Below are positions 1-20,942 of a DNA stretch of 36,441 nucleotides, piece after piece. The number at the start of each line of letters is the position of its first letter. Positions within the stretch are counted from its first letter, which is position 1. This stretch comes from an uncultured Actinomycetes bacterium (GTDB lineage Bacteria > Actinomycetota > Actinomycetes > Nanopelagicales > Nanopelagicaceae): positions 1-36,441 of the forward strand of contig CALEGP010000019.1 of the NCBI GenBank assembly GCA_937876245.1, given 5' to 3'. Position numbers and translations under genes: made by a program. The notes under the pieces were generated by a model. The model saw only the letters and a list, made by a program, of their open reading frames with translations, made no database searches and was not told where the DNA came from.

Positions 1-65
1 GTAACAACTTGTACAAACATTTTTAGGCAAACTAAGCGCAGATTGACTCTGCGCAAAGTAAAAAT
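1..65. repeat. Partial copy of the rnpB-downstream module, running off the left edge
   Basis: The first 16 bases, GTAACAACTTGTACAA, recur exactly at 9284-9299 and in diverged form around 1110-1131. In both other places they lie just left of a hairpin and the 3' end of a full rnpB gene. Here the same order is kept (16-mer, hairpin at 36-54, rnpB 3'-end repeat at 65-93), but no rnpB body follows. This is therefore the right end of a third copy of the module, and the rest lies outside the window. Confidence 0.7.
36..54 (-). terminator. Hairpin equivalent to the rnpB terminators
   Basis: A perfect 7-bp stem, GCGCAGA/TCTGCGC, with a 5-nt loop. It sits where the two full rnpB genes have their 11-bp terminator-like hairpins. 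No gene seems to end here, so it is probably a relic carried with the module. Confidence 0.45.
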
Positions 66-93
66 AAAGAAGAGTCGCCCTATAAGCCGGAGA
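65..93 (-). repeat. rnpB 3'-end direct repeat, copy A (att-like)
   Basis: A 29-bp match to 997-1025, with core AAGAGTCGCCCTATAAGCCG identical to the 3' end of both rnpB genes (the last strand of helix P1 and the conserved CCGGCTTAT segment). The sequence right of it is not rnpB, so only the 3' end is present. Its position, orientation and length fit the attachment-site duplication left by an integrase acting at the 3' end of an RNA gene. That role is inference. Confidence 0.75.
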
Positions 94-181
94 CGGCATT
101 GTTATGCGTGAGGTCACGCTCAAAAAAAGTAATTGCTCGCAGATTCCCCATAGAAACAACTAAGAAACCAGAGGAAACTAC

Positions 182-934
182 CTAACCAACTAAACTTCGA
201 GTTACTACGCCTTTCTTTATTGAAACAGTTATGCGATCCAAACGATAATCTCTAGTTAAAGCAAACATCTGATTATCCTCTTGACCAATTCGATACTGCC
301 AACCTAATTTTTCAGCACAAGATGCAGCAGCCTCTTTTTTCATACCAACTAGCCCTTCGGCATATGCTGGCAGAATCTTTACCTCATCTATTGGTGCCAC
401 CCATGCTGGACAGGTAGCAGGTGATAAAACCTCACCATAAGTCTCTAGAGTGCCAACTACAACTTGGATTGCCGCCTTTACCTTTGATTGCAAAGTAAAT
501 TTGTATATTCCATCAAGAGCTGTTTGATCATATCTTGCTAAATACAGGAAATTCGTGTCGAGAAATGGATAATAGAATTTAGTACGTTCAGTAAATTTGA
601 TTACCATTTTTTTCCCAGCCGGATCGGTGATTGTGGCAACCGGTAATTTGTTTTTAGCTAATTTATTCTCTGGTGCTTTATCAATAATTAGGTACTCAAA
701 ATATAATGTCTCACCTGCTTGTAATGCTGCCCGAAATCCTTGAGTTTGATTTGGCTTTGTGAAATTTGCTCTTATTACAAAAGAGACTTTGCCATCAACA
801 ATGATTGGTCCCTTTTTAGCACTTGAGTTAGCTGCGGTGAGGTTAATTGGCTGATGGGCGTAAGCAGGGGTCAAGTTTGAAATTGTAAACATCATGGCCA
901 GGAATAGGCCAGCCGTGTTTCTACCCGATTGCAT
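182..934 (-). CDS. Secreted protein with a C-terminal I78/potato-inhibitor-like domain
   Basis: A 250-residue protein. Residues 1-26 form a signal peptide: a short basic start, a hydrophobic stretch and a cleavage-like AYAHQ. The middle, about 30-185, is not recognised. The last ~60 residues (LVGMKKEAA... LGWQYRIG... LTRDYRLDRITVSI... GVVTRSLVG) follow the pattern of the I78 peptidase inhibitor family: an amphipathic helix, then a strand carrying DYRxDRI, then VxxGVVT. Cysteines in this half (ATCPAW and ASCAEK) could form a disulfide. It is the only gene between two near-identical rnpB 3'-end repeats, so it behaves as a one-gene cassette. Inhibition of a protease is a family-based guess; the N-terminal domain may set another role. 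Upstream, TTTACT lies 6 nt before the ATG, a weak candidate -10 for a leaderless start. Confidence 0.7.
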   Translation of the reverse strand: MQSGRNTAGLFLAMMFTISNLTPAYAHQPINLTAANSSAKKGPIIVDGKVSFVIRANFTKPNQTQGFRAALQAGETLYFEYLIIDKAPENKLAKNKLPVATITDPAGKKMVIKFTERTKFYYPFLDTNFLYLARYDQTALDGIYKFTLQSKVKAAIQVVVGTLETYGEVLSPATCPAWVAPIDEVKILPAYAEGLVGMKKEAAASCAEKLGWQYRIGQEDNQMFALTRDYRLDRITVSIKKGVVTRSLVG

Positions 935-996
935 TTAAGAAGTAAACCACATAAAGCTTAAAAGTAGGCCATATTGAAATCGCTAGACTTTAAGTT

Positions 997-1025
997 AAAG
1001 AAGAGTCGCCCTATAAGCCGGAGAG
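997..1025 (-). repeat. rnpB 3'-end direct repeat, copy B (att-like)
   Basis: Identical over 29 bp to copy A, in the same orientation, and lying about 60 bp upstream of the secreted-protein gene. A and B carry TAAAGAAG at the outer edge, while the two full rnpB genes have TGAAAGAAG. The truncated copies therefore form their own subgroup. Confidence 0.75.
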
Positions 1026-1176
1026 GATCTACGTAGGAATTTCTACCCGACTTTCATGCCCGATTGCCCGATTTTCCTGCCCGTAAATTTAGGAAAACTT
1101 GCGATAGGTAATGTCACAAATTGTTTCAAATAAATCAGGAAGGTGAGCGGAGATTTTGCCTCCGCCCACCTAATTG
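1026..1176. other. Short non-coding module between repeat B and rnpB1
   Basis: About 150 bp without a credible gene. It holds TACCCGA/TGCCCGA repeats starting at 1045, 1058 and 1066, an inverted repeat TTTTCCT/AGGAAAA at 1073-1097, a diverged copy of the 9278-9299 sequence near 1101-1128, and the hairpin at 1142-1170. The order of parts matches 9165-9348. The 11-mer TTTCTACCCGA at 1041-1051 also occurs inside the start of the secreted-protein gene at 918-928. It may be a decayed end of an integrative element with recombinase arm sites (inference). Confidence 0.5.
1142..1170 (-). terminator. Hairpin downstream of rnpB1
   Basis: An 11-bp stem (GGTGAGCGGAG/CTCCGCCCACC, one G-U pair when read on the minus strand) with a 7-nt loop, starting 8 nt past the rnpB1 3' end. 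No long U-run follows. The stem differs from that of rnpB2 by a paired G-C to C-G change, so the pairing is conserved. Confidence 0.6.
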
Positions 1177-1177
1177 A

Positions 1178-1530
1178 AAGAAGAGTCGCCCTATAAGCCG
1201 GATCCTGTCGTTCTTGCGAACGGATCACCATCCATCTAGATCTGTAATTACTTACAGATTCAAGCGACCTACCCGATAGCTTGAGCGCGAGCAACGCACT
1301 ATCTTCTTGGTCTTGCTTCAGGTGGGGTTTACATAGCTACGTATATTGCTACACGTACTGGTGGTCTCTTACACCGCCGTTTCACCCTTACCAATATTTC
1401 TATTGGCGGTTTGCTTTCTGTTGCACTTATCCCGTGGATTGCTCCAGGTGGGCGTTACCCACCACCTTGCTCTGTGAAGTCCGGACTTTCCTCGGTGTCT
1501 TGCGACAACGCGGTGATCCGGGCGACTCAG
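1178..1530 (-). ncRNA. rnpB: RNase P RNA, copy 1
   Basis: This is the catalytic RNA of RNase P, which matures tRNA 5' ends. Read on the minus strand it has the type-A landmarks in order: P1 5' strand GAGTCGCCC, GAGGAAAGTCCGGAC (P4/CR-I), GCAACAGAAAGCAAACCGCC, GGTAAGGGTGAAACGGCGG, GTAAACCCCACC, AGATGGATGG, ACAGGATCCGGCTTAT (CR-V) and P1 3' strand GGGCGACTC. Length is about 350 nt, normal for the family. It differs from the copy at 9350-9709 at many stem positions, several as paired changes. Its P1 is shorter because the AAGAA present before P1 in copy 2 is missing here. Boundaries are set by P1 and are good to a few bases. An annotation assuming a single rnpB would miss one of the two. Confidence 0.93.
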
Positions 1531-1536
1531 TAGGAA

Positions 1537-1542
1537 ATTGTA
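1537..1542 (-). promoter_or_regulatory. Probable -10 box for rnpB1
   Basis: TACAAT on the minus strand, 6-8 nt before the first base of the P1 helix, matches TANNNT at the usual distance. No convincing -35 is seen 17 nt further up. It lies in the 38-bp gap after the polyol dehydrogenase gene. Confidence 0.5.
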
Positions 1543-1568
1543 CGGGGTATTTAAGCGCACTTAAATCG

Positions 1569-2573
1569 CTATTTTTGAGGGTGAATCACTACTTTCATCG
1601 CGTCTGGATAAGAAGTGGCTTTTAGTCCCTCTTCAACTTCATCCAATCCAAAATGATGAGTAACAATTGCATCGAGATTCACTTTGCCTGAAGCCAAAAA
1701 ATCAATTCCGGTAGGCCAGGTATTTGTATATCGAAACACTCCGGTAACAATGATTTCGTTGTTTTGAATGTGAGAAATCGGCAGAAGCATCTCATCGCTT
1801 CCCAGGCCAACAAGCAGTACGCGGCCAGCAGGACCTGTTGCCAAAATGCCTGCATGCACGGCGGAGGGGACGCCACAAGCATCAACAAAGACATCAAACT
1901 TTTCTTGGCCTATTGAATTGGTCAATGTGTTTATCGTGCGGGTAGCTCCATACTTTCTTACAAAATCTAAACGCTTGTCTTGAACGTCAGTGACAACTAC
2001 CTCAGTTGCACCGAATGCTCGGGCAACCTGCGCCATGATGACTCCGATTGGTCCAGCACCAGCTATCAACACAGTCGTACCGGATTCAATCTGAGCCTTT
2101 TGTGCAGCCCAAATACAAACTGACATAGGCTCGATGAGCGCTGCAGCATCAAATGAAATATTTGCAGGCAAGTCATAAGCAAAATGTGATTGAATCTTTA
2201 CAAATTCACAGAAAGCTCCATCAATTGGTGGGGTTGCATAGAATTCAATTTCAGGACAAAGGTTGTAACGGCCAGCTTTGCACTGCTTGCACGCTTTGCA
2301 AGCTCGCTGGGGTTCAACTGCAACACGTGAACCAATACGTTCCATGGAGACTCCAGAACCCACTGCCGTAATGACACCTGAGAGTTCGTGGCCCAGAATG
2401 ATGGGTTTTTCGACAACATATGGCCCAATAGCTCCGTGCTTGTAATAGTGAACATCGCTTCCACAAATACCAACAGATTCGACCTGCACGAGAACTTGAT
2501 CAGAATCCAAATCTGGAAGAGCAATTTCTTCTGTGTAGATACGATTTGATTTATTTAGAAAGGCGGCTTTCAA
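1569..2573 (-). CDS. Zinc-dependent polyol (sorbitol/xylitol-type) dehydrogenase, MDR family
   Basis: A 334-residue, cytoplasmic medium-chain dehydrogenase/reductase. The catalytic zinc site is shown by GICGSDVHYYKHG and GHELSG. The structural zinc site is complete, with four Cys in CKACKQCKAGRYNLCPE. The Rossmann motif AGAGPIG is followed by VVVTDV, whose Asp favours NAD over NADP. The sequence is closest to sorbitol, xylitol and related polyol dehydrogenases, which oxidise a polyol to a ketose; the exact substrate cannot be read off. It is the last gene of the polyol operon. Its TTG start overlaps the stop of the upstream mannitol-dehydrogenase-family gene as TTGA, which indicates translational coupling. 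Confidence 0.85.
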   Translation of the reverse strand: MKAAFLNKSNRIYTEEIALPDLDSDQVLVQVESVGICGSDVHYYKHGAIGPYVVEKPIILGHELSGVITAVGSGVSMERIGSRVAVEPQRACKACKQCKAGRYNLCPEIEFYATPPIDGAFCEFVKIQSHFAYDLPANISFDAAALIEPMSVCIWAAQKAQIESGTTVLIAGAGPIGVIMAQVARAFGATEVVVTDVQDKRLDFVRKYGATRTINTLTNSIGQEKFDVFVDACGVPSAVHAGILATGPAGRVLLVGLGSDEMLLPISHIQNNEIIVTGVFRYTNTWPTGIDFLASGKVNLDAIVTHHFGLDEVEEGLKATSYPDAMKVVIHPQK

Positions 2574-4042
2574 TTAAGAATCGCCTCCAGAGTCTTTTGA
2601 GCACCCACGCTATGAAGTAAGTTAAGAGTTACCAGATAGGGCTCTGTAAAGCGAGGATTTTGCGCCAAATCTCCAAAAAGTTTGGAGTTTTGAATAAAAG
2701 CTTTGGAATTTTGTCGTTGAGTCTTTGCGATGGCAATCAACTCATCCTTGAGGGGATCTACAACGTGGATTGGATTTCCTTGCTCATCTGTGGCCTCATC
2801 ATAGCGAGCCCAACTGGCAACTATGGCTGCGCTCAAGGTGACTTGACCATCTGCATTGAGTTGTTGGTGCACAACCGGGAGCAACCATTTGGGAATTCGG
2901 TCAGATGATTCTGCGGCTAAGCGAGCTACTGTGTCTAGAACCTGTGAATTTGAGAATCTCTCTATCAGCTGATCCTTATATTCATCTAAATCAACTCCTG
3001 GCACAGGAAGTAGGGTTGGCGTTGCTTCTTCATCCATATACCGACGCAGTAACTTCACGATTAAGGGATCTTTCATAACCTCGTGCACATATGTGTAACC
3101 GCTAAGTCTTCCAAAGTAACATAAACCTTGGTGGCTGGCATTGAGCAAGCGCAGCTTCATCAATTCGTAAGGCATCACATCTTCGACCATCTGTACATTT
3201 GCCTTTTCAAATGGCGGACGGCCTAATGGGAAATGATCCTCAATTACCCACTGAAAAAAAGGTTCGCACGGAACTGGCCATATATCTTCAACCCCAAGTT
3301 TTTTAGTGGCTAGCTCGATATCGGCTGGTGCCGTGACAGGAGTAATTCGATCCACCATAGAATTCGGAAACACCACATTTCCAGAAATCCAAGTTGCAAG
3401 TTCTGGGCTCTTCAGCTTAGTAAATTCAACAATCATCTTCTTTGCAACATCGCCATTACCTTGAATGTTGTCACAAGATTGCACTGTAAATGGTGCTATT
3501 CCTAGATCACGACGACGCTTTAAGCCTTCAACAATAAAACCAAAAGCAGATTTGGGTAGTGTGGCCCCAGCTAAATCTTCTTTTACACCTGGAGTAGTTG
3601 GATCAAAATCTCCAGTTACACGATCAAAACTATAACCACCCTCGGTAATAGTAAGAGACACTATTCGAATTGCTGGATCAATTAACTTTTGTAGTACCAA
3701 TTGTGGGTTTTCGGGTGCAAACAAATAATCAATGATGCTACCGATAACTTGAAAGTTAAGTTTGCCATCGGGATGCTTGGTAATGAGTGTGTACAGACAG
3801 TCTTGTCGCTTAAGGGCTTCAGACATGCGCTTATCGGACTCAAGTAGCCCCACGCCCACGATGCCCCAATCTTGTGCCAGTCCCTGCGACAGCAATGAGT
3901 CGATAGTGAGCGCTTGATGAGAGCGATGGAAGGCCCCGACTCCAAAATGCAGAATTCCCGGAGTCACGGCTTTGCGATCATAAGTTGGGACAAGCACATC
4001 TTTAGGTAGTGCTGAAAGAACCTGGTTTGAGAGTCGAGTCAT
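2570..4042 (-). CDS. Long-chain mannitol dehydrogenase family protein (mannitol/arabinitol 2-dehydrogenase or fructuronate reductase)
   Basis: About 490 residues from the ATG (MTRLSNQV) three bases after the upstream permease stop; an in-frame extension to 4099 would run back into that gene. The N-terminal nucleotide-binding part begins ILHFGVGAFHRSHQA, as in MtlK/UxuB/UxaB relatives. SCDNIQGNG and the catalytic pattern KLRLLNASHQG (Lys-x4-Asn-x2-His) are intact. These enzymes act without zinc as monomers, interconverting polyols and 2-ketoses (mannitol/fructose, arabinitol/xylulose) or hexuronates. Pairing with a polyol transporter and a sorbitol-type dehydrogenase favours a polyol substrate over a hexuronate, by inference. 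No sugar kinase is present in the cluster, so the ketose must be phosphorylated by a kinase encoded elsewhere. Confidence 0.85.
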   Translation of the reverse strand: MTRLSNQVLSALPKDVLVPTYDRKAVTPGILHFGVGAFHRSHQALTIDSLLSQGLAQDWGIVGVGLLESDKRMSEALKRQDCLYTLITKHPDGKLNFQVIGSIIDYLFAPENPQLVLQKLIDPAIRIVSLTITEGGYSFDRVTGDFDPTTPGVKEDLAGATLPKSAFGFIVEGLKRRRDLGIAPFTVQSCDNIQGNGDVAKKMIVEFTKLKSPELATWISGNVVFPNSMVDRITPVTAPADIELATKKLGVEDIWPVPCEPFFQWVIEDHFPLGRPPFEKANVQMVEDVMPYELMKLRLLNASHQGLCYFGRLSGYTYVHEVMKDPLIVKLLRRYMDEEATPTLLPVPGVDLDEYKDQLIERFSNSQVLDTVARLAAESSDRIPKWLLPVVHQQLNADGQVTLSAAIVASWARYDEATDEQGNPIHVVDPLKDELIAIAKTQRQNSKAFIQNSKLFGDLAQNPRFTEPYLVTLNLLHSVGAQKTLEAILN

Positions 4043-4044
4043 AT

Positions 4045-4857
4045 TTATTTCACAGCTCCCATTGCTAGGCCACGGACTAATTGTTTCTGAGCAAACCATC
4101 CTGCAAGAATTACAGGAAGAGCTGCTACTGTCGAAGCCGCTGACAGTACTGCAAGAAATTGCCCGCGCCCATCAACGAAACTCGCCAAAAATGGTGGAGT
4201 AGTTTTAGCGTTTGCACTTGTTAACAGAACAGAAAAGAAGTATTCATTCCACGAGAAAATAAAGCATATAAGTGCAACTGCAGCGATTCCTGGAAGCACA
4301 ATGGGTAAAACTACGCTCCACAATTCAGTCTCAAAATTTGCTCCATCAATTCTTGAAGCTTCAATTACTTCGTGAGGAACCTCACTTAAAAATGATCGCA
4401 TCATCCAGATTGCAATAGGCAAATTCATTGCAGCATAGACAAGAGAAAGTGCAAAAATATTATCTAGGACGCGCAAATTTTTAAAGATGATGAAGAGCGG
4501 GAGAATTGAAGCTGCGGCTGGCATAAAACGGGTGGAGATAAAGAAGAAGAGAGCATCCTGAACCTTGACGATAGGACGCACGCTGAGCGCGTAGGCGGCA
4601 GGAATGGCCAGCAACAAAACCAACGCAGTAGAAATGACGCTTGCCATCAAGGAGTTGGTGAGATAATCCACCATTCCTCTATCTGCTAAGCGAGAGAATC
4701 CCTCAAGTGTTGGCGTAAAAATAAATTTTGGCGTCAGGCTGGCAGCATCATTTTCCGTCTTGAAGGAATTTATAAACATCCAGGCAACAGGAAAGAAGTA
4801 AGTGACAGCGATTATCCAAGTTGCACCCGTAATTAGGGTGGCCTTAGTTGATTTCAT
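4045..4857 (-). CDS. CUT1-type sugar/polyol ABC transporter permease (UgpE/MalG-like)
   Basis: A 270-residue inner-membrane protein with about six transmembrane helices. The cytoplasmic EAA loop that contacts the ATPase is clear: EASRIDGANFETELWSVVLP. It ends in the short basic tail typical of MalG-like permeases. It pairs with the permease at 4854-5765, and its start overlaps that gene's stop as ATGA. No ATP-binding subunit is encoded nearby. CUT1 systems often share one MsmK/UgpC-type ATPase among several transporters, which is the likely arrangement here. Confidence 0.88.
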   Translation of the reverse strand: MKSTKATLITGATWIIAVTYFFPVAWMFINSFKTENDAASLTPKFIFTPTLEGFSRLADRGMVDYLTNSLMASVISTALVLLLAIPAAYALSVRPIVKVQDALFFFISTRFMPAAASILPLFIIFKNLRVLDNIFALSLVYAAMNLPIAIWMMRSFLSEVPHEVIEASRIDGANFETELWSVVLPIVLPGIAAVALICFIFSWNEYFFSVLLTSANAKTTPPFLASFVDGRGQFLAVLSAASTVAALPVILAGWFAQKQLVRGLAMGAVK

Positions 4858-5765
4858 TTGCTAACTCCTGAGATAAAGACCTTGAAGAGACTTCGAAGTG
4901 AAATCGTGGCCACGATTATTGTCAGAATTACTGTGACTACTCCATAGGCCGCAGCCTGCCCAACATTCATGCCCACAAAGGCGCGTTCATAGAGCAGGTA
5001 GGCCAGCGTCTTAGTTCCACCGGTTCCCTTGGTCATGATGGCTATAGGATCAAATGCCTGCAGCAACATTATCGTGCCGAGCAGAATCGCGATTTCAATG
5101 TACTGGCGCAGATGTGGCAACGTGATGAAAGCAAAGGTGCGCAAGACACCAGCGCGATCTACGGATGCTGCCTCCAAAACTTCTCGACTCTGAGACTGCA
5201 GTCCTGATAGCAGAATAAGCATCATAAACGGTGCATATTGCCAAGTAAGGAGAATAATTACTGAGATATATGGATACTGAGTACTCCAACCAATTGCTGA
5301 GAAACCAAGCTTTTGAACGACAAAATTGATGATACCAATATTGGTATCAAACATCGAAAATTTCCAAATGAGCGCAGACGCTGCTGGCATAATCAAAAAT
5401 GGAGTAATAATAAGCGTTCGAGCAATGCTTTGGCCACGAAACTTTCGATCAAGTAATACTGCAAAGAAAAGTCCTACCAGCAACGAGCAAACTACAGAGA
5501 ATGCCGTTAAGCCAACGGTGGCAATAATTGCAGGCAGTAAGTCACCAGTTTTGAAGACATAAATATAGTTATCAATTCCTGCAAAAGCCTTTTCTTGCGG
5601 CTTAAGTAAGTTCCACTCCCTGAGGGAGAAATAGATTGTGACCAAAAATGGGACCTGTGTGAGCGCAATACTGAAAATGAGAGCTGGCGCAATCAGTTTG
5701 CGCGGAAGGAATTTCTCCTTAGTCGCACTTTTCGCTTGCTGCTCAATTTTTGTGCCCGAGGCCAT
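4854..5765 (-). CDS. CUT1-type sugar/polyol ABC transporter permease (UgpA/MalF-like)
   Basis: A 303-residue membrane protein. A basic cytoplasmic N-terminus of about 25 residues precedes the first hydrophobic helix, and about six helices follow. The coupling loop reads EAASVDRAGVLRTFAFITLP, a typical EAA motif with Arg where Gly is usual. It forms the channel with the UgpE-like partner downstream. It is separated from the binding-protein gene by a strong hairpin at 5809-5849, so it is probably made in lower amounts than the binding protein. Confidence 0.88.
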   Translation of the reverse strand: MASGTKIEQQAKSATKEKFLPRKLIAPALIFSIALTQVPFLVTIYFSLREWNLLKPQEKAFAGIDNYIYVFKTGDLLPAIIATVGLTAFSVVCSLLVGLFFAVLLDRKFRGQSIARTLIITPFLIMPAASALIWKFSMFDTNIGIINFVVQKLGFSAIGWSTQYPYISVIILLTWQYAPFMMLILLSGLQSQSREVLEAASVDRAGVLRTFAFITLPHLRQYIEIAILLGTIMLLQAFDPIAIMTKGTGGTKTLAYLLYERAFVGMNVGQAAAYGVVTVILTIIVATISLRSLFKVFISGVSK

Positions 5766-5808
5766 GAATTCTCAATCCTTTTTACTAATTCTATAAGGTT
5801 TCAAGAAA

Positions 5809-5849
5809 AGATGCCGTGCAAGGAAAATCGTAAACCTTGCACAGCATCT
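5809..5849 (-). terminator. Strong hairpin after the polyol-binding-protein gene
   Basis: Two 15-nt arms (AGATGCCGTGCAAGG and CCTTGCACAGCATCT) with one mismatch and an 11-nt loop. On the transcribed minus strand it is followed by TTTTCTT. It lies between the binding protein and the permeases, where CUT1 operons often have a leaky terminator or RNA-stabilising stem that keeps binding-protein mRNA in excess. Confidence 0.75.
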
Positions 5850-5877
5850 CTCTTACTTGAGTTGATGCATTACTGAA

Positions 5878-7197
5878 TTACTTCTGAGCATCTCCTGCAG
5901 CTTGTGCAATTACTTGACCCTTGTCGAGCGCTTCCTTAACGGTTATGCGTCCGGCAATGGCATCAGCAACAAGCTGTGCAACCTGATTTCCAACATCCTG
6001 GAATTCAGGGATCGCTACATACTGGATACCAACCCATGGTTGTGGGTTAACACCAGGTTGCTTTGGATTCACTGCGCTCATAACTTCCAATGTGATTGGA
6101 GCATATGCGGCAGCTGCTTCCTTGTACTCAGGAATTGAGTAAGTTGAAGTACGAGCTCCTGGTGGAACTAGTGACCAGCCAAGCTTGGTTCCCACGAGGT
6201 TGTGGTATTCCTTGCTTGTTGCCCACTTGATGAACTTCACTGCAGCTTCCTTATTCTGAGTGTTTGCAGGAACTGCAAGGTTCCATGACCAGAGCCATCC
6301 TGCTTCCTTTGTCTTTGCGACTGGAGCATGTGCGTAGCCCATCTTGCCCTTTACAGGTGAATCATCTGCTTCAAGCATTGATGCGGCGACAGATGCGTCG
6401 TACCACATTGCAACTTTGCCCGTTTTGAGGGCTGTTAGGCACTCATTGAAGCTGTATGAAACTGGGTCTTTCTGTCCTGCTGATGCAAGAAGATCCTTGT
6501 AGAAAGTAACTGCCTGAACGAATTCAGGTGCGTTTACCTTTGCATCCCAGTTCATGTCATACCAAGTTCCACCAAATGTCTGAACGACAGTTGTCAGTGG
6601 AGCGAAGAGATCTCCCCAACCTGGCTTACCGCGAAGGCAGATACCTGCGGTATTTGCACTGTTTACCTTCTTCGCTGCAGCGGCAACTTCATTCCATGTT
6701 GGATTGTTAGAAAGCTTTACACCCTTAGCATCAAGGATTTCCTTGTTGTACATAAGAATTGAAGACTCTCCATAGAATGGAACTGCGTACTGCATTCCAT
6801 CTACTGAAAGAGCATCCTTTACTGGAGGCAAAATATCGCCAACATCATAAGCGTCGTCAGCAAGATCTGAGGTGAGATCTGTTAGCCAACCATTAGCTCC
6901 CCACTGTGGGACTTCGTATGCACCGATTGTGACGATGTCATACTGTCCAGCTTTGTTAGCAACATCTGAAGTAACAGCAGAACGTAGGTCGCCTTCTTCC
7001 ATTACCTGGAAGTTGACTTTAATACCTGGGTTATCTGCTTCGAACTCGCTCTTGAGCGACTCCATGTCCTTCATCTGGCCGTTGTTCACTGTGGCAAGTG
7101 TGAGAGTGACATCTCCGCCTGACTGTTGCTGAACAACTACAACGCCGGCAATAGCGACTACTACGATCGCAATCAGCGCCTTTACTTTGTTATTCAT
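5878..7197 (-). CDS. Sugar/polyol ABC transporter substrate-binding protein
   Basis: A 439-residue family 1 (MalE/UgpB-like) extracytoplasmic binding protein. The ATG at 7197 is chosen over the longer frame because AGGAG lies 5 nt before it. Residues 1-25 are a basic-then-hydrophobic export segment (MNNKVKALIAIVVVAIAG) followed by VVVVQQQSGGDVTLT. There is no lipobox cysteine, so it is not an obvious lipoprotein; it may be secreted or held by an uncleaved N-terminal helix. LRGKPGWGD and PAWMYDASVAA-like segments are typical of mannitol/sorbitol or other sugar binders, but the ligand cannot be named. It is the first gene of the polyol operon, facing the AraC regulator. Confidence 0.87.
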   Translation of the reverse strand: MNNKVKALIAIVVVAIAGVVVVQQQSGGDVTLTLATVNNGQMKDMESLKSEFEADNPGIKVNFQVMEEGDLRSAVTSDVANKAGQYDIVTIGAYEVPQWGANGWLTDLTSDLADDAYDVGDILPPVKDALSVDGMQYAVPFYGESSILMYNKEILDAKGVKLSNNPTWNEVAAAAKKVNSANTAGICLRGKPGWGDLFAPLTTVVQTFGGTWYDMNWDAKVNAPEFVQAVTFYKDLLASAGQKDPVSYSFNECLTALKTGKVAMWYDASVAASMLEADDSPVKGKMGYAHAPVAKTKEAGWLWSWNLAVPANTQNKEAAVKFIKWATSKEYHNLVGTKLGWSLVPPGARTSTYSIPEYKEAAAAYAPITLEVMSAVNPKQPGVNPQPWVGIQYVAIPEFQDVGNQVAQLVADAIAGRITVKEALDKGQVIAQAAGDAQK

Positions 7198-7281
7198 GTA
7201 ATCTCCTATAGGTAGGTGAACGGCTTGCTTCAAAGGCTTACTGCGAGGGAGACCTTTGAGTTGTGCCGAATCTTGGCAGAG

Positions 7282-7337
7282 ATTATTGAGTTTCTCGCGA
7301 AAATAGGTACTTTTTTATTTCGAACAATGGTACTTTT
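7282..7337. promoter_or_regulatory. Polyol operon control region: paired 17-bp direct repeats and a -10 box
   Basis: CGAAAATAGGTACTTTT at 7298-7314 and CGAACAATGGTACTTTT at 7321-7337 match at 14 of 17 positions and start exactly 23 bp apart, about two helical turns. That is the usual layout of AraC-family half-sites. AATAAT on the minus strand (7282-7287) is a fair -10 for the polyol operon. With a 17-bp spacer its -35 would lie inside the nearer repeat, as at activator-dependent promoters. An inverted repeat CAAAGG/CCTTTG also lies at 7231-7258. The sites are seen in the sequence; the binding is inference. Confidence 0.6.
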
Positions 7338-7396
7338 CTGCAGGGTTCCTTGTGTGAACTAGGTCTCAAAATGTTATCGATATTTAGGAGGTGGAT

Positions 7397-8452
7397 ATGC
7401 CTAAGCGTAGTTCCAGCCTCGAACGTGCTCGTTCTCAAGAGGTAACACTTGAAATCTTGCCAGTAAATGCTTTTCAATCATTTAGATGTTTCATGCACGA
7501 CTATCCAGCTCCTGGCGCCCGTTATTGCGTACACATCGAATACGAAATTCACTTGATTCGGAAAGGCTCAGGACACTACAAAATTGGAGACAAGATTGGA
7601 AAGTTTAAGGCGGGCCAAGTTTCGATCGTAGGTTCACGAGTTCCTCACGACTGGGTGAGCGATCTACGTAAAAATCAAATTATTCGTGATCGAGATGTGG
7701 TTATTCAGTTCTCGCGTGAGTGGCTTGAAAAGGTACGTAAGACAATTCCTGAAATCACCGATTTTGAACAACTTTTAGATCAGGCACAGAGAGCAATCAT
7801 CTTTCATGATAAAAGTTCTGCTGCTGCCGGTAAAATTCTGGAAACAATTACTCGCTATTCGGGTATTGAGCAGGTAATGAAACTTATGGAAGTACTGCTA
7901 ATCATGAGCCGCGCCCCGGAAAGTGAACGTGAGTACATTCTTGAAGATCCTTACCAAAACGACAGTGGACCTATGGCACGTCTTGCAGCCGAAAAAGGTG
8001 TTGCATACATATTCAATAACATTGATAAAAAGATTCGATTACAAGATGCTGCCAAAATTTCTTTTATGTCGGATTCACAATTTTCAAGAGTGTTTAAAGA
8101 GGCATCTGGTCTTACTTTTAGCGAAATGATTAGAAAACTACGGATTGAGCATGGCTGCAAACTACTTGGCTCGACCGATCTCTTAATTGCAGCCATCTCA
8201 AAAGATTGTGGATTTTCCAATCTTTCAAACTTTAATCGCCAATTCCTTCGCGAAATGGGCATCACGCCACGAGCTTTTAGAGCGTTAAATCCGAAACTAC
8301 GCGTGGGACTGCTCGAACGAGTATTTGGCCATAAAAATCAACTACTTCAGCAAGCAAAAATCAATGTATATATGGATAAGAACAGCACACAGGTCTCTGA
8401 GTTTATGACCAGGATTCCCTCAAAAAATCGTTTGCGAGAGGGAGAGAATTAG
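7397..8452 (+). CDS. AraC-family transcriptional regulator of the polyol operon
   Basis: About 351 residues. The start is the ATG at 7397, preceded by a strong AGGAGG 5 nt upstream. The N-terminal half contains a cupin-like ligand-binding domain (HIEYEIHLIRKGSGHYKIGD... AGQVSIVGSRVPHDW, about residues 45-90). The C-terminal ~100 residues hold the two helix-turn-helix units of AraC proteins (LQDAAKISFMSDSQFSRVFKEA and AAISKDCGFSNLSNFNRQF), ending GITPRAFR. About 50 extra residues follow. It is divergent from the transporter operon across a 200-bp control region with paired direct repeats, so it very likely activates that operon when a sugar alcohol is bound. The ligand is unknown. Confidence 0.88.
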   Translation: MPKRSSSLERARSQEVTLEILPVNAFQSFRCFMHDYPAPGARYCVHIEYEIHLIRKGSGHYKIGDKIGKFKAGQVSIVGSRVPHDWVSDLRKNQIIRDRDVVIQFSREWLEKVRKTIPEITDFEQLLDQAQRAIIFHDKSSAAAGKILETITRYSGIEQVMKLMEVLLIMSRAPESEREYILEDPYQNDSGPMARLAAEKGVAYIFNNIDKKIRLQDAAKISFMSDSQFSRVFKEASGLTFSEMIRKLRIEHGCKLLGSTDLLIAAISKDCGFSNLSNFNRQFLREMGITPRAFRALNPKLRVGLLERVFGHKNQLLQQAKINVYMDKNSTQVSEFMTRIPSKNRLREGEN

Positions 8453-8745
8453 CGCAAATGCCCTCGCTCATTAAATGAGCGAAGTGCGCGCAAGCCATCG
8501 GATGGCCAGATTGAAATAGATGAAATTGAGCATGGTGTGGCATCCATATGGAAGACCGCATTCGCTGGAGCTCCGACGGCTAGCTTTGCAGCAGTCTTAA
8601 TGACTCCATTATGGGTAACAACAATAACTTTCTTTCCAGGATATTCAGCGACTAACTTCTCTAAAGCTTCTTCAATACGTATGGATGTTTCGTCATAAGA
8701 CTCTCCGCCACCTGGTGCATAGGCAGTTGAGTTAAGCCAAGCCAA
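8449..8745 (-). pseudogene. C-terminal fragment of a histidine phosphatase (RNase H/phosphatase-like)
   Basis: About 98 residues that align end to end with the last part of the intact fusion gene at 21025-22104: GGESYDET, KVIVVTHNGVIK with the second catalytic His, VFHMDATPCSISSI, and DGLRALRSFNERGHLR. The two are clearly diverged (roughly half the residues identical by eye), so this is not a recent duplication. The RHG phosphatase motif and all of RNase H are missing. Homology stops at about 8740, where the sequence passes into an EamA gene (next entry). Its stop overlaps the convergent AraC gene by 4 nt. It is probably a decaying scar of recombination. Confidence 0.75.
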
Positions 8746-9128
8746 TTTACCTTCGAATACTTCTCGTTGAGAACGATTACAGCCAAGATCACAGCAAGTG
8801 GCATGCTGAGTTTATCTATCGGAGCGATTTTAGAAATGCTTCCAATTTGAATTGCTTTGAAATAGAAGAGCCATGAGACGGCGCCTGCAATCCCTGAGGC
8901 ACCTATCCAAAATAGAGGCCATCCTCTGACATGTAAGACTTTTGTGCTCAATCCAGAGATAACAAGAACTCCAACTAGAAATCCAGTCATGACAAGACTT
9001 CTAATCGTTGTCGCTACTGTGGAATCAATTCCGCTATTTCCGCTCAACCCAACTTTTCCGAAAATCGCCACAAGAGAAGCGGCTACCGCAGAGATCAATG
9101 CGTATATCAACCAACGGTAATCTGTCAT
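8661..9128 (-). pseudogene. 3'-truncated EamA-family small membrane transporter
   Basis: The first ~127 residues (MTDYRWLIYALISAVAASLVAIFGKVGLSG... YFKAIQIGSISKIAPIDKLS... VLNEKYSKVNWLG) are a single-EamA-domain transporter with four predicted helices. The final helix expected after NWLG is absent. Instead the frame runs into the phosphatase fragment and gives a meaningless tail, so homology ends near 8741. TATACT lies exactly 6 nt before the ATG, giving a good leaderless promoter that abuts the rnpB 3'-end repeat D. Ligand unknown. It may still be expressed but is likely inactive. Confidence 0.7.
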
Positions 9129-9138
9129 TTACTGAGTA

Positions 9139-9164
9139 TAAAGAAGAGTCGCCCTATAAGCCGA
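9139..9164 (-). repeat. rnpB 3'-end direct repeat, copy D (att-like)
   Basis: A further copy of the last ~25 nt of rnpB in the same orientation, identical to A and B up to CCG and then diverging. It carries the TAAAGAAG edge shared by A and B. It lies about 185 bp left of rnpB2, as B lies about 150 bp left of rnpB1. Confidence 0.75.
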
Positions 9165-9348
9165 AGAAGTTGATCTCTTCAGATCGAAATTACTAAGTTG
9201 TTTGCAGCTGAAACTTGCCCATAAAACTGCCCATATTTGCCCATCGATTCCCCATAAAAACATTCAAATCTGCGACAGGTTATGTAACAACTTGTACAAC
9301 CAAAATGCAGAAAGGTGAGCGCAGTTTTAACCTGCGCCCACCTAATTG
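9165..9348. other. Short non-coding module between repeat D and rnpB2, with phased TGCCCAT repeats
   Basis: No credible gene. TGCCCAT occurs at 9216, 9228 and 9238, with a CCCCAT variant at 9250; steps of 12, 10 and about 11 bp put all on one face of the helix. Next comes CTGCGACAGGTTATGTAACA with the palindromic TTGTACAA (9292-9299), then the hairpin. GATTCCCCATAAAAACA (9246-9262) recurs with one mismatch at 142-158, just right of repeat A. Module order matches 1026-1176. Tyrosine-recombinase arm sites are the best guess (inference). Confidence 0.55.
9314..9342 (-). terminator. Hairpin downstream of rnpB2
   Basis: An 11-bp stem (GGTGAGCGCAG/CTGCGCCCACC, one G-U pair on the minus strand) and a 7-nt loop, directly after the rnpB2 3' end. 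It has the same position as the rnpB1 hairpin, with a compensating base-pair difference. Confidence 0.6.
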
Positions 9349-9349
9349 A

Positions 9350-9709
9350 AAGAAGAGTCGCCCTATAAGCCGGATCCTGTGTTTCTTGCGAAACGATCAC
9401 CATCCATCTAGATCTGCCATTGCTAACAGATTCAAGCAACCTACCTGATGACTAGAGCGAGCAGCTCTCAAGCGCCATCTTTTTGGTCTTGCTCCAAGTG
9501 GGGTTTACCTAGCCAATTACATCACTGCAATTGCTGGTGGTCTCTTACACCACCGTTTCATCCTTACCGTTATTGCTAACGGCGGTTTATTTTCTGTGGC
9601 ACTTATCCCGCGGATTGCTCCGGGTGGCTGTTAGCCACCACTTTGCTCTTCGGAGTCCGGACTTTCCTCGGTGTATTTCTACAACGCGGTGATCCGGGCG
9701 ACTCTTCTT
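9350..9709 (-). ncRNA. rnpB: RNase P RNA, copy 2
   Basis: A second complete type-A RNase P RNA. On the minus strand it has GAGGAAAGTCCGGAC, GGTGGCTAACAGCCACC, GCCACAGAAAATAAACCGCC, GTGTAAGAGACCACCAGC, GTAAACCCCACT, AGATGGATGG, ACAGGATCCGGCTTAT and the closing GGGCGACTC. Helix P1 can extend to 14 bp because AAGAAGAGTCGCCC starts the RNA and GGGCGACTCTTCTT ends it. Many differences from copy 1 keep helices paired: GGTGGGCGTTACCCACC there becomes GGTGGCTGTTAGCCACC here in plus-strand reading. Both copies therefore look functional. Its 5' flank also overlaps the spurious upstream extension of the hutG frame. Confidence 0.93.
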
Positions 9710-9715
9710 GCGACT

Positions 9716-9721
9716 AGCCTA
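9716..9721 (-). promoter_or_regulatory. Probable -10 box for rnpB2
   Basis: TAGGCT on the minus strand, exactly 6 nt before the first base of the extended P1 helix (9709). The -35 region is weak. This promoter shares a 41-bp gap with the divergent hutG start. Confidence 0.5.
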
Positions 9722-9736
9722 TCGAATTAACACCGT

Positions 9737-9742
9737 TACCAT
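9737..9742 (+). promoter_or_regulatory. Possible -10 box for leaderless hutG
   Basis: TACCAT ends 7 nt before the GTG at 9750, and no Shine-Dalgarno sequence is present. This resembles the other apparently leaderless starts in the window, but no -35 was found. Confidence 0.35.
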
Positions 9743-9749
9743 ATGTAAT

Positions 9750-10661
9750 GTGAATGAAGCTAAATTTCCTACTGACCCGAACTGGCCTCGGGCCAACTCG
9801 CTATTTGCCGGGGAGCGTTCCTCTTCTGACTCCGTTGCTGATTTTGCCCTGATCGGAATCCCTGCCCATGAAACTTCTCTTTCGGCGACTAATGCACATT
9901 TAACTCCAACTGCCATCCGAGAAGCGTTAGCCAGATATTCAACCTTCACAATTTCTGGCAATATTGATCTTCGGAATTTGTCATGCGCAGATTTAGGCGA
10001 CGTTCCGTCACCTGATGGGGCTGGAGGTGAAGTTAAAGTTGCTGCCGCGCTTTCTGGGTTGCTAGGGAAACATAAAATGATTGTTGCCCTCGGTGGTGAC
10101 AATTCAATCACCTATTCGGTAGCGGCTGGCCTCTGGCCGGACTTATCAAAAATTGGATTGATAACTTTTGATGCCCACCATGATTTACGAGATGGTAATT
10201 CAAATGGTTCTCCGGTCTGGCGACTGATTCAGGCAGGACTACCAGGTACAAATATTGTGCAGATTGGAATTGCTGACTTTGCAAATAGCGCAGAATATTC
10301 CAAACGGGCAGTCGAATCTGGAATCACCGTTATCTCAAGAGAAGAGATGCGCGATAATTCGATTGTCAATATTGTGAAGCGCGCTTTAGAAATTGCTGGA
10401 GCAAATGGCCGAGAGATTTATGTTGACTTGGATGTCGATGTTTGCGATCGCTCCGTCGCACCCGCTTGTCCTGCTTCACTGCCCGGGGGAATTTCTGCCG
10501 ATGAAATTCGGCAAGCCACGCGCCTTGTTGCTAGTGACAAGAGAGTTCGGGCAATCGATATAACAGAAATCGATTCGAGCATGGACACTCCCGACCAAAG
10601 GACTATCCGTTTGGCGGCGCTTCTAGTCTTAGAAGCTGCGGCCGGACTATCTTCTCGTTAA
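9750..10661 (+). CDS. hutG: Formiminoglutamase (arginase/agmatinase family), histidine degradation
   Basis: About 303 residues from the GTG at 9750; the longer frame from 9708 would run into rnpB2. This is an arginase-superfamily hydrolase of the binuclear manganese type. It probably hydrolyses N-formimino-glutamate to glutamate and formamide as the last step of the Hut pathway. Visible metal motifs are FDAHHD (about residue 140) and VDLDVDVCD (about 225). The first motif reads GGDNS instead of GGDHS, so one usual His ligand is Asn (see findings). The genomic link to hutU, hutI and hutH supports this function over arginase or agmatinase. The gene is convergent with hutH, and their stops overlap by 4 nt. 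Confidence 0.82.
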   Translation: MNEAKFPTDPNWPRANSLFAGERSSSDSVADFALIGIPAHETSLSATNAHLTPTAIREALARYSTFTISGNIDLRNLSCADLGDVPSPDGAGGEVKVAAALSGLLGKHKMIVALGGDNSITYSVAAGLWPDLSKIGLITFDAHHDLRDGNSNGSPVWRLIQAGLPGTNIVQIGIADFANSAEYSKRAVESGITVISREEMRDNSIVNIVKRALEIAGANGREIYVDLDVDVCDRSVAPACPASLPGGISADEIRQATRLVASDKRVRAIDITEIDSSMDTPDQRTIRLAALLVLEAAAGLSSR

Positions 10662-12184
10662 ATTAAATCAGGCAATAATTCTCGGGCAGCTTTTGAAATC
10701 TCACCGCTAGCCACTAATACAAAAGCTGCTTCCAGTTCTGGGGATAAGAATCTATCCGGCCCAATTCCCGCAACTTTGGTACGAAGTTTCTTTATTACAT
10801 TACCTGTCGCAGGTGATGGCTCTAATCCCACGCGCATTTCAATTGCCCGTGCTGAGGTGACAAGTTCGATGGCTAATATCCTTGCTAAGTTTTCGACAAC
10901 TTTGCGAAGTTTTCGTGCCGCTGCCCAACCCATAGAAACGTGATCTTCTTGCATCCCTGAGCTCGGGATTGAATCGATACTCGCAGGTGTCGAAAGTCTT
11001 TTATTTTCACTAACCAATCCTGCTTGCGTGTATTGGGCAATCATTAAGCCTGAATCAACTCCAGGATCATGTGCCAAGAATGGGGCCAATCCTGCTGATC
11101 TATTTTGATCAAGAGCGCGATCAGTACGTCGTTCCGCAATAGAACCAAGATCAGTCGCAGCTATCGCCAAGAAATCTAAGACATAGCCCACTGGCGCGCC
11201 ATGAAAGTTTCCATTTGATTGAACTCGCCCATCGGGCAATACGACGGGATTATCTATTGCGCTTGCTAATTCACGTGAGGCAATAGTTGATGCGTAATCA
11301 ATTGTGTCGCGTACTGCTCCTGCAACCTGTGGCGCGCACCGAAGTGAATATGCATCTTGAACTCTCGAATCATTTTCTCGATGTGATGCGACCAAACCAG
11401 AATTCTTTAGAAGTGAGAATATATTTGATGCACTTACGGCCTGACCAATTTGAGGTCGCAGTGGTGCATGAAGTTCCGGAGCGAATACTTGGTCAGTTCC
11501 AAGCAGTCCCTCGATACTCATTGCCGCCGTAATGTCGGCTACGGTTGCCAGTTGATATAAATCTGAACATGCCATGATCAACATGCCAAGCATTCCTTCG
11601 GTGCCGTTAATTAAGGCAAGACCTTCTTTTGCTTCAAGCTCAATAGGTTTTAGGCCAGCACTCGTTAGGGCTTGCATCGCCGACATCTCAACTCCCTGAG
11701 CATCATGAACCATTCCTTCGCCCATAATTGCTAAGGCGCAATGTGAAAGTGGAGCAAGATCACCGCTGCATCCCAATGAACCAAACTCTGGAACAATTGG
11801 CGTGATTCCAGAATTTAAATAGTCCGCATATTGCTGGGCTAGTTGTACTCGAACGCCAGTACGACCCGTAGCCATCGTCTTAAGTCTCAAAAACATCAAG
11901 GCACGAACAACTTCTCGTTCGACTGCCGGGCCGATTCCTGCGGCATGCGACCTAATTAAAGACTTCTGCAACTGGGAACGATCTTTCACATCGATGTGAC
12001 GATTAGCAAGAGCCCCAAAACCGGTAGAAACACCATAAACGGGAGTATTGCCAGCGGCATAGCCATCAATAAATTCTCGCGAAGTATTTATGGCAGCGAT
12101 AGATTCGCTGGAGAGCTCAACTTTTGCGCCAAATCTTGCAACATCTATAACATCTTCAAAACTCACTCCCGAAGTCGAGAGCAT
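10658..12184 (-). CDS. hutH: Histidine ammonia-lyase
   Basis: 508 residues from the ATG at 12184, chosen because AGGA lies 5 nt before it; an upstream in-frame ATG at 12211 would overlap hutI by 20 nt. It deaminates L-histidine to urocanate and ammonia in the cytoplasm. The family motif is GSLGCSGDLAPLSH (about 135-148); the middle triad makes the MIO cofactor and reads Cys-Ser-Gly instead of the common Ala-Ser-Gly. From memory the PAL/histidase signature allows Cys here, so activity is expected. The catalytic Tyr loop NTPVYGVSTGFG is intact. The C-terminal half also matches the family (DNPVV, QDHVSMG-type EDHVSMGWAA). It is the last gene of the transporter-hutU-hutI-hutH run. Confidence 0.95.
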   Translation of the reverse strand: MLSTSGVSFEDVIDVARFGAKVELSSESIAAINTSREFIDGYAAGNTPVYGVSTGFGALANRHIDVKDRSQLQKSLIRSHAAGIGPAVEREVVRALMFLRLKTMATGRTGVRVQLAQQYADYLNSGITPIVPEFGSLGCSGDLAPLSHCALAIMGEGMVHDAQGVEMSAMQALTSAGLKPIELEAKEGLALINGTEGMLGMLIMACSDLYQLATVADITAAMSIEGLLGTDQVFAPELHAPLRPQIGQAVSASNIFSLLKNSGLVASHRENDSRVQDAYSLRCAPQVAGAVRDTIDYASTIASRELASAIDNPVVLPDGRVQSNGNFHGAPVGYVLDFLAIAATDLGSIAERRTDRALDQNRSAGLAPFLAHDPGVDSGLMIAQYTQAGLVSENKRLSTPASIDSIPSSGMQEDHVSMGWAAARKLRKVVENLARILAIELVTSARAIEMRVGLEPSPATGNVIKKLRTKVAGIGPDRFLSPELEAAFVLVASGEISKAARELLPDLI

Positions 12185-12191
12185 GACAGTC

Positions 12192-13367
12192 CTATTTAAT
12201 TTTGAGGCCATCTCGCCACACCTGTTCTACTAAATTAACTCCCGGGCGATATGCCAAGTGAATATACGAATCTGCGCTGAGAATGGAGAAGTCGGCACGA
12301 GCTCCTTCTCCTAAGTGACCCACGTCATCACGAAGCAGAGCTTTTGCGCCACCCATCGTTGCCGACCAGAGAGCTTGTTCTGGCGAGAAGTGCATTTCCC
12401 GTACCGCAATCGCAATCACGAAGGGCATGTTAGTTGTGTATGAACTTCCTGGGTTGCAATCTGAAGCCAGAGCAACCTTGATGCTGGCTTCAAGCAAAGG
12501 ACGAACATCTGGATACTTTGAAAGAGTTGAAAATTCAGCTCCGGGTAAAAGTGTTGCCACCGTACTGGAAGTTGAGAGCGCTTCAATATCTTTTTCACTT
12601 ACATGAGAGACATGATCCACTGAAGCCACGCCGAGCTCGACACCCAGGCGCACACCCTGTCCCTCCTGTATTTGATTTGCATGTAGGCGAGGCAGTAAAC
12701 CTCGCGCCATTCCTGCTTTTAAAATTGTGCGAGCATCTTCTGCAGAAAATGCGCCTTTGTCACAAAAAACATCAATCCATTTAGAGAATGGAAGGGCGGC
12801 TTCAAGCATCGGGCCGCAAACTAAATCCACATAATCTTTAGGGTTCTTTTTATATTCAACAGGAACAACGTGAGCACCGAGAAAAGTAGTCTCCTCCGTA
12901 AAGCCACGAGCAATCTCAAGTGATCTGCGCTCATCTTCGACAGTTAACCCATATCCGGACTTACATTCAATCGTGGTCGTACCACTGGCATGAGCTTCGA
13001 CAAATAAGGATTTTGCATTAGAGCGTAACGCTTCATCACTGGCCGCTCGCGTTTTTTCAACCGTAAGAGCTATGCCTCCTGATGTGTAGCTCTCGCCCAG
13101 CATTCGTGCGCGAAATTCTTTGCTGCGATCCCCCGCAAAAATCATATGAGTATGGCTATCGACGAAACCAGGAATTATCGTTTTACCCTGAGCATCAATC
13201 TTCTTCTTGATGTGGTGGATTGGCGCCTGGTCATCTGGTCCAGCCCAGGCAATAACTCCATCTTCAATTAGAAAAGATGCCCTCTCGATAAGGCCTAATT
13301 TCGTGCCATCATGCTCTGGATCATTGGTGACAAGTTGCCCAATATTGTGGACCAGTGTGCTTGTCAT
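12192..13367 (-). CDS. hutI: Imidazolonepropionase
   Basis: 391 residues, amidohydrolase superfamily. It opens the imidazolone ring of 4-imidazolone-5-propionate to give N-formimino-glutamate. The metal-binding HxH lies in [18 protein letters not shown] (about residue 70). Downstream ligands are in [27 protein letters not shown] and SDCNPGS. Length is normal for the family (about 400). Its ATG overlaps the hutU stop as ATGA, and hutH follows 7 nt after its stop. All three steps to formiminoglutamate are therefore translated from one message. Confidence 0.95.
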
Positions 13368-15034
13368 TCAATATCCAACATTGGAACATGAACATGGCGC
13401 TCTTTTGCAGTTTCGATTGCGTGGTCATATCCGGCATCCGCATGACGAATGACTCCCATCCCCGGATCATTGCTAAGCACTCGAGCAAGTTTCTGAGCAG
13501 CTAGTTTTGTGCCATCTGCGACTGAAACCTGACCAGCGTGCATTGAACGTCCCATCCCGACTCCACCGCCATGATGCAGAGAGACCCATGATGCTCCTGA
13601 TGAAATATTTACCATGGCATTCAAAAGTGGCCAATCTGCAATTGCATCAGACCCATCTAACATTGATTCAGTTTCTCGATATGGTGACGCAACCGAGCCA
13701 CAATCTAGGTGGTCTCGGCCAATAACAATTGGCGCCGACACTTCGCCCTTTGCGACTAGGTCATTAAATGCCAGCCCAGCTCTGTCACGTTCGCCGTATC
13801 CGAGCCAACAGATTCGCGCTGGTAATCCTTGAAAGGCCACTTTCTCCTGCGCCATTGTTATCCAACGATGCAAGCCTTCATTTTCTGGAAAGAGATCTAG
13901 AACGGCTTTATCGGTGCGATAAATATCTTTTGGATCACCAGAAAGTGCAACCCATCTAAAAGGTCCCTTTCCTTCGCAGAAAAGTGGGCGGATGTAGGCA
14001 GGGACAAAGCCTGGGAATGCAAATGCTCGGCTGTATCCACCTTGGCGAGCTTCGTCGCGAATTGAATTTCCGTAGTCAAATACTTCTGCCCCTTTGTCTA
14101 GGAAACCAACCATAGCTTCAACGTGCTTGGCCATCGATTCTTTTGCGCGCTTTGTGAAATCTTCTGGCTTGTCCTTCGCCAGTTGTTCAGCTTCATGTAC
14201 ATCAACCCCAATTGGAATATAGGAGAATGGATCATGAGCAGATGTTTGATCAGTAACAATATCAATCGGAACGTCCATCGAAAGCAGTAGGGGAAATAAT
14301 TCTGCAGCATTTCCTTCAAGACCTACCGAGAGCGGACGACGATCGCTCTTTGCTTTCAATACTCGAGCAATTGCATCATCTAGGTTATCTGCTATCTCGT
14401 CCAAGTATCTAGTTTCGATTCGCTTCTCCAGTCGCGTCTTATCAACGTCGATAATTAAACAGACACCACCATTCATGGTTATTGCCAGAGGCTGGGCACC
14501 GCCCATTCCGCCGCAACCACCCGTCAGAGTTAGAGTTCCCTGAAGTGTGCCATTAAATCTTTTTGCAGCTACGGCAGCAAATGTTTCATATGTTCCTTGC
14601 AAAATTCCCTGCGTACCAATATAAATCCAAGATCCTGCCGTCATCTGGCCATACATTGTCAGTCCAAGATGCTCGAGGCGGCGAAATTCTGGCCAGTTAG
14701 CCCAATCTCCGACAAGATTTGAGTTTGCGATCAATACTCGGGGCGCCCATTCATGTGTTTGAAATACGCCAACGGGCTTGCCGGACTGCACCAAAAGAGT
14801 CTCGTCATCATTCAAGTTTGTAAGACTTTTAACGATGGCATCAAATGACGGCCAGTTACGCGCTGCCTTTCCAGTTCCGCCATAGACAACAAGTTTTTCC
14901 GGATGTTCAGCAACGGCTGGATCCAAGTTGTTGTGAAGCATGCGGATTGCGGCCTCTTGACCCCAGCCTTTAGCCGTTAAGTTTGAGCCAGTTGCTGCTC
15001 GTAGAACTCGGGACGAATAATTTGGATCGCTCAT
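13364..15034 (-). CDS. hutU: Urocanate hydratase (urocanase)
   Basis: 556 residues from the ATG at 15034 (MSDPNYSS), the usual family length. An in-frame ATG at 15073, 3 nt after the upstream ATPase stop, would add 13 residues and cannot be excluded. It converts urocanate to imidazolonepropionate with tightly bound NAD. Highly conserved blocks are present: [66 protein letters not shown] (NAD site), [21 protein letters not shown] with the active-site Cys region, and [16 protein letters not shown]. The match to actinobacterial urocanases is nearly continuous. It lies in the same run as the peptide-type transporter. Confidence 0.96.
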
Positions 15035-15076
15035 TTGGTGAGAATATCGTGCCTTCAAGGCGATTGAAAGCATGGT

Positions 15077-18035: not shown

Positions 18036-18122
18036 GGTTGTTACACTCCTCTACGGTTCTATTACATTCACGATGTATATCAAAATTAATTTATAGCGTT
18101 AAATCAAATTACATAAAAGAGC

Positions 18123-18150: not shown

Positions 18151-18167
18151 ACCCTTCTATTTATAAC

Positions 18168-19922: not shown

Positions 19923-19976
19923 TCTTTCTCCTTTTATTCTCTAGTTTTAAAACTCATTTAACGCTGATTGCACTCT

Positions 19977-20936: not shown

Positions 20937-20942
20937 TTGCGC

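Follow-up and report, generated by a model that had tools for sequence, protein, structure and literature searches.

Genomic islands at tRNA and tmRNA genes are well established (Islander class, PMC4383910); they target the 3' end of the gene, restore it, leave a displaced fragment of it at their far end and depend on a tyrosine integrase. Related arrangements occur in streamlined aquatic bacteria. Repeated tRNA-Lys 3' ends precede variable blocks in the additive island fGI-2 of Methylopumilus (PMC10872708), and the tycheposons of Prochlorococcus, as presented in PMC10872708, are tyrosine-recombinase cargo elements that target one of seven tRNA genes. Integrons hold short, mostly single-gene and mostly co-oriented cassettes between recombination sites in an array anchored at one end. 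Here we analyze a window of 36,441 bp, the entire contig C19 (CALEGP010000019.1) of the 1.52-Mb assembly of an uncultured Nanopelagicaceae bacterium (genome G000), in which copies of the 3' end of rnpB, the gene for RNase P RNA, bound a comparable array; the left end of the window adjoins one of these repeats. Comparison of assembled genomes of the family makes it very probable that the rnpB 3' end serves as a chromosomal attachment site at which integron-like cassettes are gained, lost and exchanged via bivalent tyrosine integrases.

Inspection of the window reveals five exact plus-strand matches to AAAGAAGAGTCGCCCTATAAGCCG, the 24 bp of the rnpB 3' end, at 66-89, 997-1020, 1177-1200, 9140-9163 and 9349-9372. 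As minus-strand features these exact matches define core sites 1 (66-91, a copy of the 3' end without a gene), 2 (997-1022), 3 (1177-1202, the 3' end of a first full-length gene, rnpB1), 4 (9140-9163) and 5 (9349-9374, the 3' end of a second, rnpB2). The original prediction, that five rnpB 3'-end repeats lie in a single orientation, is thus borne out exactly over 24 bp, and no 24-mer of the window recurs on its opposite strand. In the 1.52-Mb assembly the five window sites are the only ones with up to three mismatches allowed, and a reversed control pattern gave zero matches. The two leftmost copies, A (65-93) and B (996-1024), share 29 identical bp and enclose a single gene (open reading frame 182-934) as first described, with the coordinates of copy B corrected by one base. 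A special meaning of the 29-bp identity was considered and dropped, as both cores merely have GAGA next to them.

The closest kin of the rnpB array are the tRNA-anchored additive islands and the tycheposons. As in fGI-2, copies of the terminal ~20 nt of a structural RNA gene recur ahead of variable cargo in a streamlined freshwater bacterium; unlike in fGI-2 (PMC10872708), the target is rnpB and the host an actinobacterial family, and the analysis identifies an integrase, arm repeats and exchange of cassettes across genera. Tycheposons likewise are tyrosine-recombinase cargo elements of streamlined aquatic bacteria, and their target too is a structural RNA gene. They are defined by a tRNA gene as insertion site and a tyrosine recombinase carried within, whereas the target here is rnpB and the units are mostly small (median 0.77 kb) and without a recombinase. 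The Islander layout is reproduced with an intact target 3' end on one side and a displaced 3'-end copy on the far side, and differs in the choice of rnpB and in the long arrays of non-autonomous cassettes (PMC4383910). With integrons the locus shares an array of exchangeable, mostly co-oriented cassettes. In contrast to integrons, no IntI was detected (58 bits against TIGR02249, cut-off 265; only XerC and XerD in G000), an essential RNA gene provides the anchor, and the shared site is a non-palindromic duplex core of ~25 bp with phage-type arms rather than a folded attC with inverted R and L boxes. In the literature searched, which left most subscription journals outside its scope, rnpB is nowhere presented as an attachment site, and an earlier description is possible. 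Leads in PMC2516327, PMC8776855, PMC2386152, PMC2705793, PMC4256840 and PMC3541175 turned out to have no bearing on the question.

The core is found in 179 of 296 Nanopelagicaceae genomes, with a maximum of eight copies and mostly one orientation per contig (reversed control, zero), and the array hosts are freshwater acI actinobacteria. Within the genus of the window, 14 of 27 genomes have the site, several with 3-5 copies. Complete one-contig genomes (G035, G065, G067, G123, G134, G135, G237, G255-G257) show cores that trail rnpB in rnpB orientation. Alignment of 123 non-redundant cassette junctions yields a consensus core of ~25 bp, TCCGGCTTATAGGGCGACTCTTCTT, followed by a weak T-run, and information drops to about zero on either side, such that the edges are sharp and the core alone is shared. 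Information within the core derives in part from selection, where sites were accepted with at most 4 mismatches to 23 bases, but this selection did not extend to the flanking TC and T. The core corresponds to the P1 3' strand plus the 3' end of rnpB. The first 60 nt past it are enriched in hairpins (mean z of -0.96 versus -0.10 at random positions), and a hairpin with a T-rich tail follows 19% of rnpB-proximal sites versus 1.2% of random positions.

Core-like sites also lie off the main rnpB array, at L141:7006 (G134:C1:347004) and at L148:3198 and 14581 (G271:C2), the last with a hairpin and four CGGGCA arms; these are perhaps ectopic insertions or relocated arrays. Many family assemblies break inside rnpB (L065, L066, L067, L069, L076, L081), which suggests extra rnpB copies or repeats, and absence of rnpB from a metagenome-assembled genome (MAG) is here not evidence of loss. 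Some public MAG records with the core are titled Bifidobacterium breve, Streptomycetaceae or Phycisphaerae and are probably mislabelled.

Cargo differs between core copies by gain, loss and exchange. The set comprises 148 core-to-core cassettes (median 765 bp), among which 36 pairs match over their full length, exactly core-to-core, between genomes. Exchange reaches across genera, with a 4127-bp cassette 99.95% identical between G067 (genus g8) and G123 (g11) and a 515-bp cassette 99.8% identical between G013 (g1) and G205 (g11). A precise indel accompanies the latter pair, where G205 carries cassettes X-Y-Z and G013 carries X-Z, and Y stands first after rnpB in G107; presence/absence variation between copies, on which the original prediction hinged, is therefore seen. 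Cassette open reading frames are co-oriented in 197 cases and opposite in 71, and the cargo proteins include DUF305, alpha/beta hydrolase, metallo-beta-lactamase fold, MFS, MMPL and TipAS-domain proteins. Ordinary homologous recombination, acting through rnpB and through neighbouring cassettes that genomes have in common, might give similar patterns, with the cores as fossils of old insertions, and some shared blocks do cover two cassettes and extend into rnpB (G067/G123), while the donor segment of the window described below (1178-8743) has one illegitimate end, like the products of homology-facilitated illegitimate recombination. Many exchanged cassettes, however, end exactly at the 25-bp cores between unrelated neighbours (G070/G069, G205/G013/G107), and the same core has integrases and phased arm repeats linked to it, which leaves homologous recombination a quite unlikely explanation for the array.

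Integrase-bearing elements occupy the same site. In G023, of the same genus as G000, a 6.75-kb element lies between rnpB and a core and encodes a DUF4379 zinc protein, an HTH_17 protein, a protein resembling G2P replication initiators (weak, E 0.0013) and a tyrosine integrase. The integrase gene stops just short of the far core. Homologues with 44-90% identity to this integrase are present in G184, G056, G115, G195 and G177 (twice), and the catalytic R, H-x-x-R, H and Y are conserved. A core lies 0-310 bp from the integrase gene end in G023, G184, G115, G195 and G177 (twice); near the G056 gene the core is degenerate, with 7 mismatches, and three homologues at 26-28% identity have no core nearby. 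The G115 element spans 11 kb and includes a type III restriction-modification pair. Empty sites are found in relatives: a 110-bp stretch that starts with the far core of the G115 element matches, at 100% identity, the rnpB core of G018 and the sequence directly after it, and the cassette behind the G177 integrase directly trails rnpB in G257, G123 and G067. Integrase elements between rnpB and a second core, together with these empty sites, support the earlier proposal of tyrosine-recombinase integration at rnpB.

Among solved structures, 3nkh and Int 6emy/6en0 come closest by sequence. The similarity covers the SAM-like and catalytic domains and is remote, and the integrases of the rnpB system differ in being tied to a fixed rnpB site. 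The integrase has no relative in the viral contigs searched, an exact search of those contigs for the core gave no match, and megablast of window positions 1-9760 against phages returned nothing. Against phages and plasmids, all integrase matches fall below 60% identity, with ~25-29% among the best matches listed.

Only two PF00589 proteins are encoded in G000, XerC (beside rpsB/tsf) and XerD (beside scpA/parA), each named by its neighbours, and the cassettes of the window therefore look non-autonomous. Mobilization by the host XerC/XerD pair as a dif-like system would fit the two Xer-like recombinases in the genomes searched and the many array-bearing genomes without any other. It is very improbable, given that the core lacks a dif-like inverted-repeat layout by inspection, that dedicated integrases adjoin it, and that the modules are marked by arm sites, which to our knowledge Xer enzymes do not use.

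Within cassettes, the density of the motif TGGGCA over the initial 250 bp is 6.7 times that of the remainder, with no enrichment of its reverse complement. Matches cluster at +80 to +140 from the core, frequently in patterns such as 105/115/127 or 92/104/112/124 (spacing ~8-13 bp), and arm modules carry 3-4 repeats at +92 to +127. Two or more arms are present at 24 of 67 rnpB-proximal sites; among internal sites the count is 13 of 152, and among random positions 11 of 3000. The Fisher p of 2.5e-6 for rnpB-proximal versus internal sites is a guide only, as related sequences are not independent. Integrase elements have arms of their own, GTGGGCA four times in G115, ATGGGCA three times in G195 and GGGGCA variants in G023, G184 and G056, and further arms lie in the stretch from the integrase gene to the far core in G115 and both G177 copies. 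Arms that flank a core on both sides are the attP (phage attachment site) layout of bivalent tyrosine integrases. From their phasing, the repeats qualify as putative integrase arm-type sites of the kind that RNA-gene islands possess.

These observations can be assembled into a mechanism. The core TCCGGCTTATAGGGCGACTCTTCTT in the P1 3' strand of rnpB would act as attB, the bacterial attachment site, for a family of bivalent phage-type tyrosine integrases. The attP of an integrative element would consist of the core and, beyond it in the direction of rnpB, a terminator-like hairpin together with, at +92 to +127, a set of 3-4 arm-type repeats. An element inserting at the core would rebuild the rnpB 3' end and deposit a second core at the far end, and repeated insertions would produce a one-orientation array with each cassette flanked by cores. 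Cassettes without an integrase probably move in trans via the integrase of an element. New units may enter beside rnpB, where arms lie, as do some of the most similar cassettes, and the hairpin may terminate rnpB transcription.

At the level of sequence, the comparison establishes site-specific, core-bounded gain, loss and exchange, together with linkage to predicted tyrosine integrases and attP-like arms. Several points weigh against the attachment-site reading. A dedicated integrase was not found in G000, which has only XerC and XerD, and a close integrase occurs in just 6 of the 296 family genomes. Most internal cores are without arms (13 of 152 have at least two), and many of the genomes are fragmented MAGs broken at rnpB. 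In the assembled genomes compared, no excision or circular form was seen.

Leftward from rnpB2, the window comprises module A, the core at 9140, a truncated EamA gene, the donor segment up to rnpB1, module C, the core at 997, cassette D and the core at 66. The best reading of the core-to-core comparisons is that modules A and C represent two att modules of core, hairpin and arms, and that D represents an exchanged cassette. Cassette D (92-996, minus strand), delimited by its core-to-core match in G233 (genus g11; 93.5% over 953 bp), holds one gene (182-934) for a protein of 250 aa with no Pfam or NCBIfam match. A recurrent cassette end, ...CACGCATAACAATGTCGTCTC, stands ahead of the core in otherwise different cassettes (window 65-125, L120, L137, L152 and others). 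Module C (1023-1176, minus strand) is a gene-less attP-like unit recognized by its core-to-core match to G069 (genus g8; 97.5%) and its phased arms, with a terminator-like hairpin at 1141-1171 and arm-type CGGGCA repeats (minus strand) at ~1057-1083. Module A (9164-9348, minus strand), likewise gene-less and attP-like, matches G016 core-to-core at 85.7% and has TGGGCA arm repeats (minus strand) at 9216-9243 and a terminator-like hairpin at 9313-9343; copies of it with 89-94% identity stand behind non-rnpB cores in G067, G123 and G177. The truncated EamA transporter gene (8736-9139, minus strand), assigned by its EamA match, is the first after core site 4, and in G023 and G237 an EamA gene 87-91% identical to the window copy also begins at a core site.

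The two rnpB genes have different histories. Both rnpB1 (1178-1529, minus strand, 302.8 bits) and rnpB2 (9350-9705, minus strand, 314.4 bits) are full-length class A genes, identical at 299 of 353 aligned bases (84.7%). In the tree, rnpB2 is placed with genus mates G016 and G010 as the resident gene that anchors the array, while rnpB1 falls within genus g11, with 96.1% identity to G234, as a xenolog. A recent tandem duplication as the origin of rnpB1 was considered and dropped, given the 84.7% identity and the tree.

Upstream of rnpB1 lies a sugar/polyol catabolic operon (1569-7233) on the minus strand, with Pfam assignments of a zinc dehydrogenase (1569-2573), a mannitol dehydrogenase (2570-4099), two ABC permeases (4045-4857 and 4854-5765) and a solute-binding protein (5878-7233). 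It is followed by an AraC-family regulator on the plus strand (7391-8452; Pfam HTH_18 and AraC_binding) and by a C-terminal fragment of a donor RNase H/histidine phosphatase gene (8449-8743, minus strand; His_Phos_1), 93% identical to G234 up to about 8742. The intact resident copy of the phosphatase gene lies at 21025-22104. In relatives the phosphatase gene sits upstream of rnpB, and both the fragment and rnpB1 match g11; from these similarities, the best account of 1178-8743 is that the phosphatase-to-rnpB locus is present a second time, in a foreign version whose cargo operon differs. The interval upstream of the resident rnpB up to its phosphatase gene (9708-21024) also holds variable cargo, and no cores separate the genes there. 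This cargo includes hut-type genes and a peptide transporter in the window, sugar genes in G234 and an amino-acid transporter in G098 (loci L326, L155).

In other genomes EamA matches begin at 8736 and phosphatase matches stop at 8742-8743, which places an illegitimate junction, with ~7 bp of shared sequence, at 8736-8743. The donor locus copy, with phosphatase fragment, sugar operon and rnpB1, would have been joined at this end by illegitimate recombination. The segment needs at least one such event, and an integrase alone is no explanation for it. Repeated accretion at rnpB, as originally predicted, is supported; the accompanying view that the second full rnpB was restored on integration does not hold, as this g11 xenolog arrived with a donor chromosome segment. 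Window positions 1223-8649 are 99.8% identical to contig C81 of G001, another species of the same genus, which suggests recent transfer or bin contamination. That the rnpB1 segment was misjoined from another species by the assembler or in binning is unlikely, and would touch the second rnpB only and not the array. The junction is confined to G000 among the genomes compared, rnpB1 belongs to another genus and G001 carries the segment, all as a chimera would predict; the overlap at the joint is just ~7 bp, however, far below what assemblers use, the contamination estimate is 0.78%, and the array itself is present in complete one-contig genomes.

With this finding, RNase P RNA joins the RNA genes that serve as docking sites. 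The finding also indicates that rnpB can cross genera and be doubled, which is relevant where rnpB serves as a marker and helps explain assembly breaks at rnpB. Among freshwater bacteria, the acI actinobacteria, with their streamlined genomes, belong to the most abundant, and for this family the array represents a family-wide port of gene entry for which the site is defined, there are candidate integrases and the cassettes can be traced. More tentatively, and with somewhat less than even confidence, the locus may be a capture system unrelated to integrons, in which the post-rnpB unit of core, hairpin and arms acts as an attI-like platform that arm-less cassettes enter, mobilized in trans by the integrases of passing elements. 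If so, an essential ribozyme gene would guard the entry to a gene pool common to the freshwater acI genera.

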